Shown here in pieces: positions 22,926 through 50,457 of a DNA stretch of 64,000 nt. The notes under the pieces were generated by a model that saw nothing but the letters and a program-made list of their open reading frames with translations, searched no databases and was not told the origin of the DNA. The stretch comes from an uncultured Subdoligranulum sp. Its GTDB lineage: Bacteria > Bacillota > Clostridia > Oscillospirales > Ruminococcaceae. Within the stretch, counting starts at the first letter, position 1. The number at the start of each line of letters is the position of its first letter. The stretch covers positions 1 to 64,000 of the forward strand of contig CALZZE010000003.1 in NCBI GenBank assembly GCA_945830575.1, written 5' to 3'. A program made the translations under genes and the position numbers.

Positions 22926-22970
22926 TCTTCAGGATTCAGCAGCAGGAAAATATTTGCACGGTGGACATAA

Positions 22971-23142
22971 GGCAACACCGCACAATTCACGGCTTACGCC
23001 TTACGCACCGCTCCGACGAACGATGCGCACCATCTGCGTTGCAAAAATGCTCGATAATACACAAAGTATTATCTGCGCTTTTTGCTTAGCAGCTGGCACA
23101 CCTCGTCCGCCGTATCGGCACGTAGAATTATGCGGTGCCGCC
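22971..23142. repeat. MITE-like 172-bp element, copy 1
   Basis: Terminal inverted repeats GGCAACACCGCACAATTC / GAATTATGCGGTGCCGCC; near identical to 45271-45442; flanked by ATAA on both sides. Confidence 0.82.
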
Positions 23143-23196
23143 ATAAAAAACAGCACAGCCCCGCAAAAGGCTGTGCTGCCGACGATGCAAGTCCTC

Positions 23197-42340: not shown

Positions 42341-42706
42341 TCAGCGGACGAGGCCCGGATCACCTGGAACGCTGGTGTGTTCCCGAACGTATACCCAGCC
42401 TCCATTCGGGTTCATTTCCAGACTGCCTTCAAAGTACCAGCTTTCATCGCAGGGGTCGCAGTAGTAGCGTCCCCAGCTGCCCGTGTGCACAGGGCGGTGG
42501 CAAGTCGGGCACAGATATTTTTTGTTGTCGTCGGTGCCCTTCCACTCATAAACGGCATAGACGTGCCGGATGCCTCCCCATGTGACCTCCTTGCGAAGAA
42601 GAACGGAGTACTCCTTGAGGCCGCCTGTCACCTTGTCCATCTCTTCATCGGGCAGGGCCTGCGCTTCGGTGGCTTCGGCGGTGGGCAGCTTCTTTTCGTT
42701 TTCCAT
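42341..42706 (-). CDS. Double-glycine-leader peptide with Cys4 zinc-ribbon-like core
   Basis: MENEKKLPTAEATEAQALPDEEMDKVTGG|LKEYSV...YLCPTCHRPVHTGSWGRYYCDPCDESWYFEG. Confidence 0.72.
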   Translation of the reverse strand: MENEKKLPTAEATEAQALPDEEMDKVTGGLKEYSVLLRKEVTWGGIRHVYAVYEWKGTDDNKKYLCPTCHRPVHTGSWGRYYCDPCDESWYFEGSLEMNPNGGWVYVREHTSVPGDPGLVR

Positions 42707-42738
42707 AGTTATGTTCCTTTCCTTCAGAATCATTTCAC

Positions 42739-43026
42739 TCACGCAATGGGGAAGATCAGCATCTCTCCAACGATGTCACCATTGTTTTTTTGTGTGACAG
42801 CATACATATTTGTGGGTATCTCTGCATTGATCATATGAAAGCGATGATTGATTTTCCAGACGCCCTCGCCCAGAACCGGAACCAGGACAAGCTGCCCGAT
42901 CTCGTACTTGTACGGCAGCTTGATGTCCCAATCCTCATCGGAGACTCCGCCGGTTACGTCCTTCAGAAGGGACTCGTCCAGTTCCTGCGGGCCGTCAGGG
43001 GTCAAAAACAGCTTTTTGTTTTCCAT
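42739..43026 (-). CDS. Double-glycine-leader peptide
   Basis: MENKKLFLTPDGPQELDESLLKDVTGG|VSDEDWDIKLPYKYEIGQLVLV...; RBS AAAGGAG; operon with 42341-42706. Confidence 0.7.
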   Translation of the reverse strand: MENKKLFLTPDGPQELDESLLKDVTGGVSDEDWDIKLPYKYEIGQLVLVPVLGEGVWKINHRFHMINAEIPTNMYAVTQKNNGDIVGEMLIFPIA

Positions 43027-43119: not shown

Positions 43120-43680
43120 TTACGCCTGCGGGTTTCCCCCGCCGTTCTGTGCGGCGCGCCGGGCGGCCAGCCAGTCGCAGAGCCTGTTCAGAGCCCAAAC
43201 CGTCAGCACCGCCAGCGCCGCGCCCAGCACTGCGCCGAACAGCACATCGGTGGGGAAGTGCACAAACAGATACATTCTGCTGAAGCCAATCAGCGCCGCC
43301 ACCGCCAGCAGCACCGCGCCGGGCTTTTTGAAGTACATCCACACCGAAGCTGCCGCCGCGAAGGCCCATGCGGTGTGGGTGGAGGGGCAGGAGTAGCTGG
43401 AGGGGCGCTTGACGAGCAGCTCCACCGTCTGGTCCAGATGGCAGGGCCGGGGCCGGGCAATCAGGTCCTTGAGAACGTACTGCCCCACCAGAAATACCAG
43501 CCCGTAGGACAGCAGCACCGCCACACCGCAGCGCCGGGTTTTGGGGAACAGGCACAGCGCCACGCCCACCACCAGCCAGATCTGGCCGTAGCTGCCCATG
43601 ATGTTGGTCAGTCCCAGAATCAGCGCGTCCATCACCGGGCCGCGCAGGGTCTGAATGGCGTACAAAATTGAGAAATCCAT
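43120..43680 (-). CDS. PAP2-family phosphatase
   Basis: KDLIARPRPC, SYSCPSTHTAWAFA, FVHFPTDVLFG. Confidence 0.9.
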   Translation of the reverse strand: MDFSILYAIQTLRGPVMDALILGLTNIMGSYGQIWLVVGVALCLFPKTRRCGVAVLLSYGLVFLVGQYVLKDLIARPRPCHLDQTVELLVKRPSSYSCPSTHTAWAFAAAASVWMYFKKPGAVLLAVAALIGFSRMYLFVHFPTDVLFGAVLGAALAVLTVWALNRLCDWLAARRAAQNGGGNPQA

Positions 43681-43762: not shown

Positions 43763-45070
43763 TCACATCAGGGAAAGCTCTGCATAGGCCTCGCCCATCA
43801 GGCGGTGCTGCAAGCCGCCTGCGCCGTCCTCCGGCACCAGCAGGTCAAATTCCACCTGCCGCTGGAACACCATCACGATGTCGCTGCCGCCGAACAGGAA
43901 GTAGCCCATGGGGTCGCCGCGTTTGACCTTGGCACCCACCTGCACGGACTCCTCCCAGTTGCAGGAGCAGATCTGCGACATGCCGATGGGCAGAATGGCC
44001 ACCAGACCGTATTCCGTGTCCAGAATTACACAGTCGCGGGTTTCGATCATCTGCCAGCCGGGAATGGTATCCTCCAGCACATAGCGGCCGATGTCGGCGT
44101 CCCACACCGTCACACCGCCTGCGGCGTTGGTGCCGGGAATCTTGCGCACCTCCACCACCGTGCCGTCAATGGGGAAGTGGTAGCGGTGGTAGTCGTTCAC
44201 ATCCAAAAAGGTATGGGTCAGCGTGCCGCCCGCGAAGGCGTCCGCGTAGGCGCTGTCCTCGCCAATCAGCTGACGGATGGAGGTGAAATTGGCGGACTTG
44301 ATCTGCACGCCCTCCCGCTGGACCAGATCGCCGTTTTCATCAATGTTCCAGACGCCCTGCGGCTTGGAATCTGCGGGGGCCACCAGCGCGCAGTCCGCAA
44401 TGGGACGCACGGTGGGGTCGGACAGGCGGCGGGCAAAGAAATCGTTGAAGCTGTGCCACTGCCCGGCATCCTCATACCATCCGGCATCCAGACCAAAGCT
44501 CTCGTCCTGCCGGAACAGTTCCAGATATTCCTCCGACCAGCTTTCCGGCGTGGACAGGTAGCTGCCCCAGCTTTCAGCGTAGGTACGGCACCAGCTGGCA
44601 ATCGGCTCGTGGTATTGCAGGGACGGATAGTAGTATCCCCGCCCCTCCAGCTCCTCCAGCGGCTGGTCCACCAGAAACCAGAAATAGTCCACCGACTGGT
44701 CGATATGGTCGTACAGGGTGGGGTAGTCCCCGTCCTTCAGCACATTCCACGGCATACAGGTGGCCGCCCAATCCAGAAAATCATACAGCTGGTCGATGCT
44801 CTGCGCCGGGTTGGTGTCGGGATCCGGGTTGATTGCCGCCGCTGCGGCCAGCGATTTTTCCATCAGGGCCATCAGTTCCGGGTCTGCGTCCAGCAGGGCC
44901 TTCAGCTCCTCGGTCATGGCCGCGTGGGCCGGCGTTTGCTGCTGAACGGTCTGACTGGCGGCGGAGGACACCGCCTCGCCGGCCGGTGCGCCGCAGGCGG
45001 TGAACAACAGCATCGCCGCCGTTAAAAGGGTGATGCATGCAATGGGCACACGGCGGTTCGTTATTTTCAT
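43763..45070 (-). CDS. Phosphatidylserine decarboxylase-family lipoprotein
   Basis: DVNDYHRYHFPIDGTVVEVRKIPG; PMGYFLFGGSDIVMVFQ; lipobox LLFTACG. Confidence 0.82.
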   Translation of the reverse strand: MKITNRRVPIACITLLTAAMLLFTACGAPAGEAVSSAASQTVQQQTPAHAAMTEELKALLDADPELMALMEKSLAAAAAINPDPDTNPAQSIDQLYDFLDWAATCMPWNVLKDGDYPTLYDHIDQSVDYFWFLVDQPLEELEGRGYYYPSLQYHEPIASWCRTYAESWGSYLSTPESWSEEYLELFRQDESFGLDAGWYEDAGQWHSFNDFFARRLSDPTVRPIADCALVAPADSKPQGVWNIDENGDLVQREGVQIKSANFTSIRQLIGEDSAYADAFAGGTLTHTFLDVNDYHRYHFPIDGTVVEVRKIPGTNAAGGVTVWDADIGRYVLEDTIPGWQMIETRDCVILDTEYGLVAILPIGMSQICSCNWEESVQVGAKVKRGDPMGYFLFGGSDIVMVFQRQVEFDLLVPEDGAGGLQHRLMGEAYAELSLM

Positions 45071-45120
45071 AGATGGTTTTCCTCGTCTTTCTGTCTGTTG
45101 GAATAATCTGCCTAAATACA

Positions 45121-45149
45121 AATATGCGGCACACGACAGTTTGTTACAG
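45121..45149 (-). promoter_or_regulatory. TGTAACA promoter motif (motif 2)
   Basis: Reverse strand: TGTAACA-AACTGTCGTGTGCC-GCATATTT. Confidence 0.75.
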
Positions 45150-45270
45150 ATTTTTTCACTTTTTTACAAATCAGAACCATTTTAACGATACCGCATAACA
45201 AATAAAATGTCAATCCGGTTTGCCAGCTTGAAAAAAAGAAAGCAATGATTTATAATGGGCTGAAAGCTAA

Positions 45271-45442
45271 GGCAATACCGCACAATTCACGGCTAACGCC
45301 TTACGCACCGCTCCGACGGCTGCGGCGCGCCATCCGCGTCGCAAAAATGCTCGATAATACACAAAGTATTATCTGCGCTTTTTGCTTAGCATCTGGCACA
45401 CCTCGCTCGACGTATCGGCACGTAGAATTATGCGGTGTTGCC
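45271..45442. repeat. MITE-like 172-bp element, copy 2
   Basis: GGCAATACCGCACAATTC ... GAATTATGCGGTGTTGCC; same length as copy 1. Confidence 0.82.
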
Positions 45443-45474
45443 CTGAAATGATTGTAAGGAAAGGCAGTTTGCGT

Positions 45475-46449
45475 ATGAAAACATTGAGGATTCCCTCCGG
45501 CGTCACCGCCGTAAAGTTCTCCTGGAGCCGTATTCTCCCGATGATCCTGCTGGCGGCGCTGCTGTCCGGGTGCGGGGCGCAGGCGCAGCCGGCGGAGCCT
45601 TCCCCGCAGCCGGTGCAGGAGCTGCCAGCCGATGCGGTGGTCAGCTATCTGGGGCCGGCCGGCACCTACACGGAGCAGGCGGCGGAGCTTCTGTTTTCTC
45701 AAAGCGCGCAGCTGCAGCCCCGCGCAACGGTGGCGGAGACCCTGGACGATGTGATGGAGGGCCGCGCCGATTACGCGGTGATCCCGCAGGAAAACACCAT
45801 CGGCGGCCCGGTCTATGACTATCTGGACGAGGTGCTGAACAGGGAGGGCCTGTCTGTGCACGGAGAGGTGGAGCTTCCCATCCGGCAGGCGCTGCTGGCG
45901 CCGGAGGGCACCGCCCTTGCGGACATCCGCACCGTCTATTCCCACAAGCAGGGCATCGCGCAGGGCAGCGCGTGGCTGAAGGAGCACCTGCCCGATGCGG
46001 AGGTGGTGGAGGTTTCCAGCACGGCGGAGGGCGCCCGCCTTGCGGCGGAAGAGGCCGACGGCTCGGCAGCGGCCGTTGCCTCCACGCAGGCCGCCAAGGT
46101 GTACGGGCTGTCGGTGCTGGCCGAGAGCATCCAGCAGAACGACAACAATGTGACCCGCTTTTATCTGGTCTCCACCCGGCCGGGCGCCGACACGGGGGAC
46201 AGAATGGTGTTTTCCGCTGCGGGGCCTGCCGACGCTCTGCCCGGCCTGCTGCAGTCCATGGAGGAACACGGCCTGACGCTGGTGGCCCTGCATGACCGCA
46301 CCGCCAAAACCACACTGGGCAGCTACGTATGGCTGGTGGAATGCAGCGGCGGCGGAAAAGCGGAATTTGCGCAGCTGGAAACCGAAACCCCCGGCCTGAC
46401 GCTGCGGTATCTTGGCGCGTTTCAGAAAAAAATGTTGGAGACCTCTTGA
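45475..46449 (+). CDS. Prephenate dehydratase-family lipoprotein
   Basis: VSYLGPAGTYTEQAA, YAVIPQENTIGG, NVTRFYLVS; ACT-like tail; N-terminal ILPMILLAALLSGCGAQ lipobox. Confidence 0.85.
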   Translation: MKTLRIPSGVTAVKFSWSRILPMILLAALLSGCGAQAQPAEPSPQPVQELPADAVVSYLGPAGTYTEQAAELLFSQSAQLQPRATVAETLDDVMEGRADYAVIPQENTIGGPVYDYLDEVLNREGLSVHGEVELPIRQALLAPEGTALADIRTVYSHKQGIAQGSAWLKEHLPDAEVVEVSSTAEGARLAAEEADGSAAAVASTQAAKVYGLSVLAESIQQNDNNVTRFYLVSTRPGADTGDRMVFSAAGPADALPGLLQSMEEHGLTLVALHDRTAKTTLGSYVWLVECSGGGKAEFAQLETETPGLTLRYLGAFQKKMLETS

Positions 46450-46469: not shown

Positions 46470-46765
46470 AAACTGCAACTACACCGATGAGGAAGAGTGA
46501 GTAAGCGCCGCACCCAACGGCACAGAGAGCCGCGGCAGGTGGAAAGCGGTACGCAGGGCAGCGCTTAATGGACTTCCGAGGGCGACCCGAACGCCAGCGC
46601 CAGTAGGGGAGACGGAGCGGCACTCCGTTACCAAATGTCAGCGTATGTTTGTACGCGTTGAGTGGGCGCAGTCCGCGCCAAGCCGGGTGGTACCGCAGAA
46701 GTGAATTTTCGCTCCTGTCCCAGCAACGAACCGTTGCAGGACGGGAGTTTTTTGTGCCCCTTTCC
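46470..46765 (+). ncRNA. T-box leader, probable Trp specifier (UGG)
   Basis: GGGTGGTACCGCAGAAG T-box core at 46684-46700 followed by a terminator-like stem CTCCTGTCC...GGACGGGAG-T6; CTTAATGGACTTCC in the stem I region; promoter TTGACT-N17-TAAACT upstream. Confidence 0.82.
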
Positions 46766-46790: not shown

Positions 46791-47312
46791 ATGAGCCAGC
46801 ACGAAATCCCCTACAAAATCTACCTGCAGGAATCCGAAATGCCCACCCGGTGGTACAATCTGCGCGCCGACATGAAGAACAAGCCCGCGCCGCTGCTCAA
46901 CCCGGCGACCCTCCAGCCCTGCAAGCCGGAGGAACTGGAGGCGGTGTTCTGCGCGGACCTCGTCCGGCAGGAACTGGACGACACCACGCTGTTTTTTGAC
47001 ATCCCGCAGGAGGTGCGGGAGTATTACCGCACCTACCGGCCCAGCCCGCTGGTGCGCGCCTACAATCTGGAGAAAAAGCTGGGCACCCCCGCAAAAATCT
47101 ACTACAAGTTTGAGGGCAACAATACCTCCGGCAGCCACAAGCTGAACAGCGCCATCGCGCAGGCCTACTACGCCAAAAAGCAGGGCCTGACCGGCACCAG
47201 CTACTTCGATATGGTGGCCTACGAGAAATTCCACAACGGCGAGATGAGCGACTACTTCCCCACCGACGCCGACCTGCAGACCGGCTTTGACGGTCTGCCC
47301 GCACAGCCGTAA
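46791..47312 (+). pseudogene. Tryptophan synthase beta-like (TrpB2) gene with large in-frame internal deletion
   Basis: N-terminal IPYKIYLQESEMPTRWYNLRAD...KFEGNNTSGSHKLNSAIAQAYYAKKQGL joined to C-terminal TGTSYFDMVAYEKFHNGEMSDYFPTDADLQTGFDGLP; only 174 aa. Confidence 0.78.
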
Positions 47313-48919: not shown

Positions 48920-49075
48920 TCATAGGTCCACCGATTCCGCACCGGGGGCCGGCTCAAAATGCGGGCGGCCCTCCCGCAGGCAGGTCAGGATGCGGGCGAT
49001 GGGGACCTGCGTGGGGCAGGCGGCCTCGCAGGGGGCGGCGCAGTCGGCGCAAACATCGGCCTGGGGCAGGCGAAG
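48920..49075 (-). pseudogene. C-terminal 4Fe-4S-binding fragment
   Basis: ADVCADCAAPCEAACPTQVPIARILTCLREGRPHF near the end of an open frame. Confidence 0.55.
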
Positions 49076-49189
49076 GGCGGCATTGCGGCGTTTGCGGCGG
49101 AATACGCGCAGGCCACGCAGGACCCGCGGGCGGTGCAGATTTTGCAGGATTACCGAAAGAAAATCCGCCGCGCCCAACACAACATCGAG

Positions 49190-50155
49190 ACGGGCGGCGG
49201 CGCCGCGCAGTTGGGAGGTCTGGTGGGCTTCACCGGACTGACCGGCGGCGTCAAAACGCTGCTGATGGCCGGACGCACCCTGAACGAAGAAGCGTTTGTC
49301 AGCACAGCGCTGTCCCTTGCGGAGCTGCTTTGCAGCGTCCCGGTGGACAGCATCACGGCGTGTGATTTTTACGGCGGTGCGGCGGGGCTTTTGTATCTGT
49401 TGTGTACCGCGCCGAAACTGCGGGCCATGCCGAACCACCCGCAGCGAACCGAAGCACTTTGCCAGCGGCTGCTGGCCCTGCAAACGCTGGACACCAAACA
49501 GGGCATCCGCACGTGGGACACCCTTGGCAAACAGCGCCCCATCAGCGGGCTGGGCCACGGCATTGCGGGCGTTGGGCTGGCACTGGCCGCCGCATGGCGA
49601 CTGTATCCGTCGGAGGAACTGTACGCGGCCATGCGGGACGCCTTCCTGCTGGAGGGGCAGCTGTACCATGACGCCATGGGGACCTGGCCGGATTTCCGGG
49701 ATTCCTCGGTGCCGTCCGGCGCCATGAACGGTTACTGTTCCGGCGCGCCGGGCATGGGCGCGGTCTATCTGAGGCTGCATCAGCTGGGCATCACCGAATT
49801 TGACGGTGACATGGAAAAGGCCATCCGGTCAGTGACCGCAGCGCCGCTGATGTCCCGCGACCACTGCTGCTGCGGCAACGGCGCAACGGTGGAATTTCTG
49901 CTGGACGCGGGCCGGGCGCTGAACCGTCCTGAACTGACCGAAACCGCGAAGGAGCGCCTGACCGCCATGGTACAGCGCAAAGCCGCCAAGGGGCAGTTCA
50001 CCTTCCTGCCCGCCGATTATGAAAACTACAGCCCCTTCGGACTGCTGAACGGAATCGGCGGTCTGGGTCATCTGCTGCTGAAAGCGCAGGGCCTTGCGGC
50101 GGGAAGCCTGTTTTTTGAAAAAAGCTGTAACAAAATGGCGAGTTGTGTGTATTAG
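49190..50155 (+). pseudogene. LanM/LanC-type cyclase C-terminal domain (truncated)
   Basis: ISGLGHGIAGVGLALAAA, SGAMNGYCSGAPGMGAVYLR, SRDHCCCGNGATVEFLLDAGR (zinc Cys/Cys-His pattern); no dehydratase domain upstream. Confidence 0.75.
50126..50155 (+). promoter_or_regulatory. TGTAACA promoter motif (motif 2), overlapping the end of the LanM fragment
   Basis: TGTAACA-AAATGGCGAGTTGT-GTGTATTA. Confidence 0.55.
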
Positions 50156-50202: not shown

Positions 50203-50457
50203 ATGAAAACCTTACAGGAGCTGTACAACGAAGTGATGAACAGCGATGCGCTGAAAACCGAGTTTCTGACGCTGACGACGCCGGAGCAGGTCGTGGCCTT
50301 TGCCGAAAAGAACGGCTGCCCCGCTACGCTGGAGGAAATCAAGAGCTTTTTTGAGGAACAGTCTGCCGCAGCGGGGGAACTGTCCGATGAAAAATTGGCC
50401 ATGGTAGCTGGCGGCGCCGTGTTTACACCTGAATTTTACACTCCGATACAGGCCTGA
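50203..50457 (+). CDS. Nif11-type RiPP leader peptide
   Basis: MKTLQELYNEVMNSDALKTEFLTLTTPEQVVAFAEKNGCPATLEEIKSFFEEQSAAAGELSDEKLAMVAGG|AVFTPEFYTPIQA; RBS GGGAGG. Confidence 0.85.
   Translation: MKTLQELYNEVMNSDALKTEFLTLTTPEQVVAFAEKNGCPATLEEIKSFFEEQSAAAGELSDEKLAMVAGGAVFTPEFYTPIQA

Follow-up and report, generated by a model that had tools for sequence, protein, structure and literature searches.

A predicted lipid-anchored prephenate dehydratase from an uncultured Subdoligranulum sp. and its exported relatives in gut bacteria

Exported AroQ gamma chorismate mutases carry out a shikimate-pathway step outside the cytoplasm (reviewed in PMC10520331), and exported CM-CDT and CDT-CM fusions, described from nine proteobacterial species, coexist with cytosolic AroQ-PheA and are reportedly free of feedback regulation (PMC10520331). 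Among enzymes of the prephenate dehydratase (PDT) type, EqPdt, a secreted powdery mildew effector, is a PDT-ACT protein that is active on prephenate and works outside its producer cell; a Thr-to-Ala exchange in its TRF motif abolished activity (PMC11980547). GqqA of Komagataeibacter europaeus (7am0) is a PDT homologue that reportedly keeps PDT activity (PMC8192741). Within ACT domains, GALV and ESRP have been named as ligand-binding motifs (PMC10845154). Literature searches under the terms exported, secreted, periplasmic, lipoprotein and rumen returned no description of a bacterial exported PDT of the PheA type.

The protein described here belongs to an exported branch of this known enzyme family, previously undescribed as far as we searched. 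Its gene lies in the window, by which we mean the whole 64,000-nucleotide stretch of Subdoligranulum DNA that was analysed. The open reading frame runs from ATG 45475 to the stop codon at 46447-46449, exactly where the original prediction had placed a PDT with a lipoprotein signal peptide. The features of the locus are:

45228..45256, plus strand: promoter-like site TTGAAA-17-TATAAT, 11/12 (consensus match only)
45268..45450, no strand assigned: dispersed repeat of ~178 bp, MITE-like, with 18-bp imperfect terminal inverted repeats (genome search)
45456..45464, plus strand: ribosome-binding-like (SD-like) sequence AAGGAAAGG, 10 nt 5' of the ATG (by eye)
45475..46449, plus strand: coding sequence of the predicted exported PDT, 324 aa (ORF reading, translation, Pfam and NCBIfam matches)
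45475..45570, plus strand: putative lipoprotein signal peptide, residues 1-32 (sequence features, family comparison, host LspA and Lgt)
45571-45573, plus strand: predicted acylated Cys33 (lipobox LLSG/C33)
45640..46179, plus strand: PDT catalytic domain, residues 56-235 (Pfam match, motif comparison)
46201..46434, plus strand: ACT-like C-terminal domain, residues 243-320 (fold model, motif comparison)

ATG 45475 is the likely gene start, because the longer frame opened by an alternative upstream TTG (45382) would begin inside the dispersed repeat, and because AAGGAAAGG precedes the ATG at 10 nt. The repeat, which separates the promoter-like site from the PDT gene, has 53 matches in the same genome and copies in congeners; a second copy lies in the window at 22968-23148. 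By consensus match, the window contains 5 such promoter-like sites, against 0.4 expected.

The N-terminus of the protein, MKTLRIPSGVTAVKFSWSRILPMILLAALLSGC, combines four basic residues, a hydrophobic stretch and the lipobox LLSG/C33, and is followed by a linker and the PDT domain. The features of a bacterial lipoprotein (n-region, hydrophobic region and a lipobox with its cysteine) are present, and Lgt and LspA are both encoded in the host genome; we infer that the protein would be lipidated at Cys33. Export segments recur throughout the family, for which 85 rows were compiled (84 distinct; 2 rows cut at contig ends). In each of the 83 rows whose N-terminus is complete, the protein begins with a hydrophobic export segment, and a simple regular expression finds a strict lipobox in 60 of these 83, most of the others having a looser lipobox, a type I signal or a membrane anchor. 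No lipobox occurs in the 27 cytosolic PDTs used as controls. A translation start after the signal region, the weak point foreseen in the original prediction, is therefore unlikely.

Several relatives carry the PDT domain fused to another enzyme. In four Lachnospiraceae members (L063, L079, L081 and L099; three of the four tested against Pfam), it stands behind a histidine acid phosphatase (His_Phos_2, branch 2) that has its own signal peptide. We take the RHNIRAP and HDSNIG motifs of this phosphatase domain to resemble those of the glucose-1-phosphatase Agp. In Lachnospiraceae MC2017 (L088), a lipoprotein GH3 glycosidase is fused to the PDT. Since export signals are family-wide, fusions stand behind export signals and cytosolic controls are free of lipoboxes, the predicted extracytoplasmic location of the family is well supported at the level of sequence. 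The signal peptide and lipobox of the original prediction are thus real features, and its exported, lipid-anchored PDT is a prediction strongly supported by the protein, the family and the fusions to secreted enzymes.

The PDT domain, described from the outset as complete-looking, is indeed nearly full-length: Pfam PDT (PF00800), the sole Pfam match, covers residues 56-235 with an E value of 3.5e-57 and profile positions 1-179 of 181. Its catalytic-domain residues are E106 and N107, S156-H157-Q159-Q163, and T227-R228-F229. Residues E159, N160, S208, Q211, Q215, T278, R279 and F280 of E. coli PheA have identical counterparts, N160, S208, Q215 and T278 corresponding to N107, S156, Q163 and T227, and the TRF motif to T227-R228-F229. 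Across the family, N107, S156, H157, Q159, Q163, T183 and T227-R228-F229 are invariant (84/84 members), and near the active-site motifs Q105, I109-G110, Y116, S182 and Y230 are family-specific residues in place of the typical PDT ones. The NCBIfam equivalog NF008865 (PRK11898, prephenate dehydratase) matches as far as the C-terminus with 205 bits, against a cut-off of 219; the protein is related to this curated equivalog yet lies outside it.

The fold model (pLDDT 88.5) predicts an ACT-like C-terminus, in which GALV reads DALP and ESRP reads HDRT, so that the membership feature of GALV plus ESRP is absent. Across the exported family the ESRP position reads HDRP, with a new invariant His273. 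We note that GALV and ESRP are a regulatory feature and not one that defines PDT catalysis. Given that the catalytic residues are kept and GALV and ESRP altered, the enzyme is predicted from its residues to be likely active, and probably free of the usual phenylalanine feedback inhibition. A disulfide between family cysteines 70 and 290 (present in 76/84 and 80/84 members, usually together) was also considered; the window PDT has C290 only and lacks C70.

To survey the wider family, an alignment of five members served as the query of a pattern scan over 84,980 species genomes; the scan yielded 298 relatives, of which the best 80 were kept. These best 80 of 298 come from Clostridia, Erysipelotrichia, Coriobacteriia, Spirochaetia and one Riflebacteria MAG, and 52 of the 80 have ruminant-gut or related isolate labels. 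Record names suggest that some genomes apparently hold two copies (L070 and L103 in RUG12488; L098 and L102 in RUI013). Elsewhere the exported PDT is rare: the order sample of 393 genomes added a single carrier (E <= 1e-75), and 398 other genomes drawn from across the phylum gave none (E <= 1e-70). No family member was found on viral contigs, plasmids or phages; the plasmid and phage PDT matches are of the cytosolic type, at <40% identity.

A maximum-likelihood tree of 84 exported sequences and 33 cytosolic PDTs, with outgroups from the bacterial family of the window only, separates all 84 exported PDTs from those 33 by a single branch (support 100); many inner branches are weak. The Actinomycetota sequences form one group within Bacillota, adjoining the subclade of the window, and the Spirochaetota sequences fall at three positions; both placements indicate horizontal spread of the family. 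Pairwise dN/dS of close family pairs is mostly 0.05-0.2, pointing to purifying selection; the value for the window PDT against its nearest relative is 0.26, above most pairs.

The same genome encodes a cytosolic AroQ-PheA (CM, PDT and ACT) on another contig. The window PDT is thus an extra copy beside the ordinary enzyme, and it is not needed for ordinary phenylalanine synthesis. Within the genus the exported copy occurs in 1/35 genomes, the other 34 giving cytosolic-type matches only, of at most ~165 bits versus 501. It occurs in 5/199 genomes of the bacterial-family sample, and all of the other four carriers have a second, cytosolic-type PDT.

When the neighbourhoods of 84 loci were clustered, no conserved gene neighbour emerged, the largest recurring non-PDT cluster being found in 6 loci, and there was none of the conserved kind that would point to phenylpyruvate uptake. 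On the minus strand at 43763-45121 lies a divergent, phosphatidylserine-decarboxylase-like gene with a lipobox-like LLFTAC, which was not found near other members of the exported family. A PAP2 phosphatase follows at 43120-43680 (minus strand); in L037, among the nearest relatives, a homologue with 70% identity is encoded ~1.9 kb away from the PDT gene. Downstream, a TrpB-like (trpB_rel) gene at 46791-47312 lacks ~852 bp (284 codons, in frame) that are present in at least ten congeners; the junction has a 5-7 bp overlap and reflects a deletion or an assembly effect. Directly 5' of this truncated gene, a T-box leader (RF00230) at 46478-46725 scores 69.4 bits (E 3.3e-15), below the gathering cut-off of 93. 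Around the PDT gene there are also double-glycine-leader RiPP precursor-like ORFs, a LanC-like cyclase and a Nif11-like leader peptide (42341-43026, minus strand; 48959-50155 and 50206-50457, plus strand). Similar leader ORFs lie near the PDT elsewhere only in L038, L040, L046 and L076. With 5/84 loci, all in the subclade of the window, the RiPP leaders were considered and not counted as a component of the system.

We lean towards a lipid-anchored, feedback-insensitive PDT that would convert extracytoplasmic prephenate, as an extra, horizontally spread gut-family copy capturing prephenate that has been released. The protein would sit lipid-anchored on the outer face of the cytoplasmic membrane, and prephenate (possibly arogenate) would be decarboxylated and dehydrated outside the cytoplasm to phenylpyruvate (or phenylalanine). 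Catalysis would use the active site typical of PDTs and escape the usual feedback by phenylalanine, and the probable use would be the capture of prephenate from neighbours or lysed cells. We infer the origin of the substrate and the benefit of export, and prephenate turnover is likewise a prediction. A CM_2 search of the same genome found no exported chorismate mutase, its one CM_2 domain being that of AroQ-PheA, so that the prephenate would have to be supplied by other cells or by leakage. Across 13 genomes with family members, the best CM_2 matches fall in frames as large as cytosolic AroQ-PheA, except in one genome, where the frame is AroQ-shikimate dehydrogenase-like. Several points count against this explanation: no exported chorismate mutase was found in the same genome, no conserved neighbour suggests phenylpyruvate uptake, residues near the active-site motifs are family-specific, and the literature searched makes no mention of "extracellular prephenate".

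The original prediction had spoken of sensing or processing of extracellular ligands. Of the two, processing is favoured, because none of the residues linked to catalysis in E. coli varies among the 84 family members. Sensing is less favoured. On this view the protein would no longer be primarily an enzyme, and would recognise an aromatic compound, as a sensor or a solute receptor, through its binding-protein-like PDT fold and rewritten ACT-like domain. In its favour, the fold of PDTs belongs to the binding-protein type, His273 in the ACT-like motif is new and invariant, and lipid-anchored binding proteins are common in Bacillota. The best PDB matches of the fold model are PDTs and GqqA (7am0, top); the model also matches periplasmic binding proteins and sensor domains, weakly. 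Since the catalytic residues do not vary, no transporter, kinase, regulator or other signalling gene is a conserved neighbour and the fusion partners are enzymes, we consider a mainly sensing role unlikely. The family-specific residues near the active-site motifs, from Q105 to Y230, could mean that the substrate is another cyclohexadienyl compound (e.g. arogenate or a plant- or microbe-derived prephenate derivative) and not prephenate, which the unchanged core catalytic residues make improbable.

The likeness to GqqA raises the further possibility of an extracellular quorum-quenching acylase acting on acyl-homoserine lactones (AHL) or related signals, with PDT activity secondary. GqqA, the top structural match, is a PDT homologue with AHL acylase activity, and its docking residues Y16, S17 and T174 (PMC8192741) appear, by motif position, to correspond to Y65, T66 and probably T227. 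These positions are, however, common to PDTs in general, the protein is 24% identical to GqqA, and GqqA reportedly keeps only 2/4 of the E. coli catalytic positions that the exported family retains; an acylase is accordingly very improbable. That the protein is instead cytosolic or a decaying duplicate, its signal a misread start, could be argued from its presence in 1/35 congeners, the repeat inserted in the 5' region of the gene and the dN/dS of 0.26. The frame is open, however, with all catalytic residues present, the family is under purifying selection, and export signals are found family-wide, including fusions behind them; we give decay or a cytosolic location hardly any credence.

The preferred reading, an exported PDT that would process prephenate, points to a role for a shikimate-pathway intermediate outside the cell that has not been described before. 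Tentatively, and with more doubt than confidence, we raise the idea that prephenate or a relative circulates in the gut, above all the ruminant gut, as a public metabolite, for which exported, sometimes hydrolase-fused and horizontally spread PDTs of several phyla may compete, or which they may turn into growth factors or signals derived from phenylpyruvate. Textbooks treat phenylalanine biosynthesis as cytosolic. A conserved, widely transferred exported version with intact catalytic residues and altered feedback motifs would imply that prephenate, or something close to it, is present outside cells in the gut, which the papers searched do not describe, and the question of why bacteria export shikimate enzymes becomes testable in cultured gut isolates. 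For annotation, exported PDTs would simply be named "prephenate dehydratase", and metabolic models would assign them to phenylalanine biosynthesis.

Compared with the known systems, the AroQ gamma chorismate mutases share the extracytoplasmic step and differ in enzyme and fold, and none was found in the same genome by the CM_2 search. GqqA is the closest structural match, but it hydrolyses AHLs and is the sole PDT of its genome, and no export signal is mentioned in what was consulted on it (PMC8192741). EqPdt, unlike the window PDT, is fungal, has no signal peptide (unconventional secretion) and acts inside plant cells together with a chorismate mutase effector (PMC11980547). With the cytosolic PheA type (PF00800 plus ACT; PDB 2qmx, 3mwb, 2qmw and 4lub), the window PDT shares the PDT-ACT domain order, the catalytic residues and the fold; it adds an export signal, an altered GALV/ESRP and a clade separate from the 33 PDTs of the same bacterial family. 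Periplasmic PheC and the exported CM-CDT fusions place an exported prephenate dehydratase beside a cytosolic AroQ-PheA, as here (PMC10520331), but PheC-type dehydratases derive from solute-binding proteins, whereas the window PDT does not (Pfam PDT only; best fold matches PDTs). In contrast to the CM-CDT fusions, it is the PheA-type PDT itself that is predicted to be exported here; it has no attached chorismate mutase and is found in other phyla, among Gram-positive and other gut bacteria, and in a much larger number of species.
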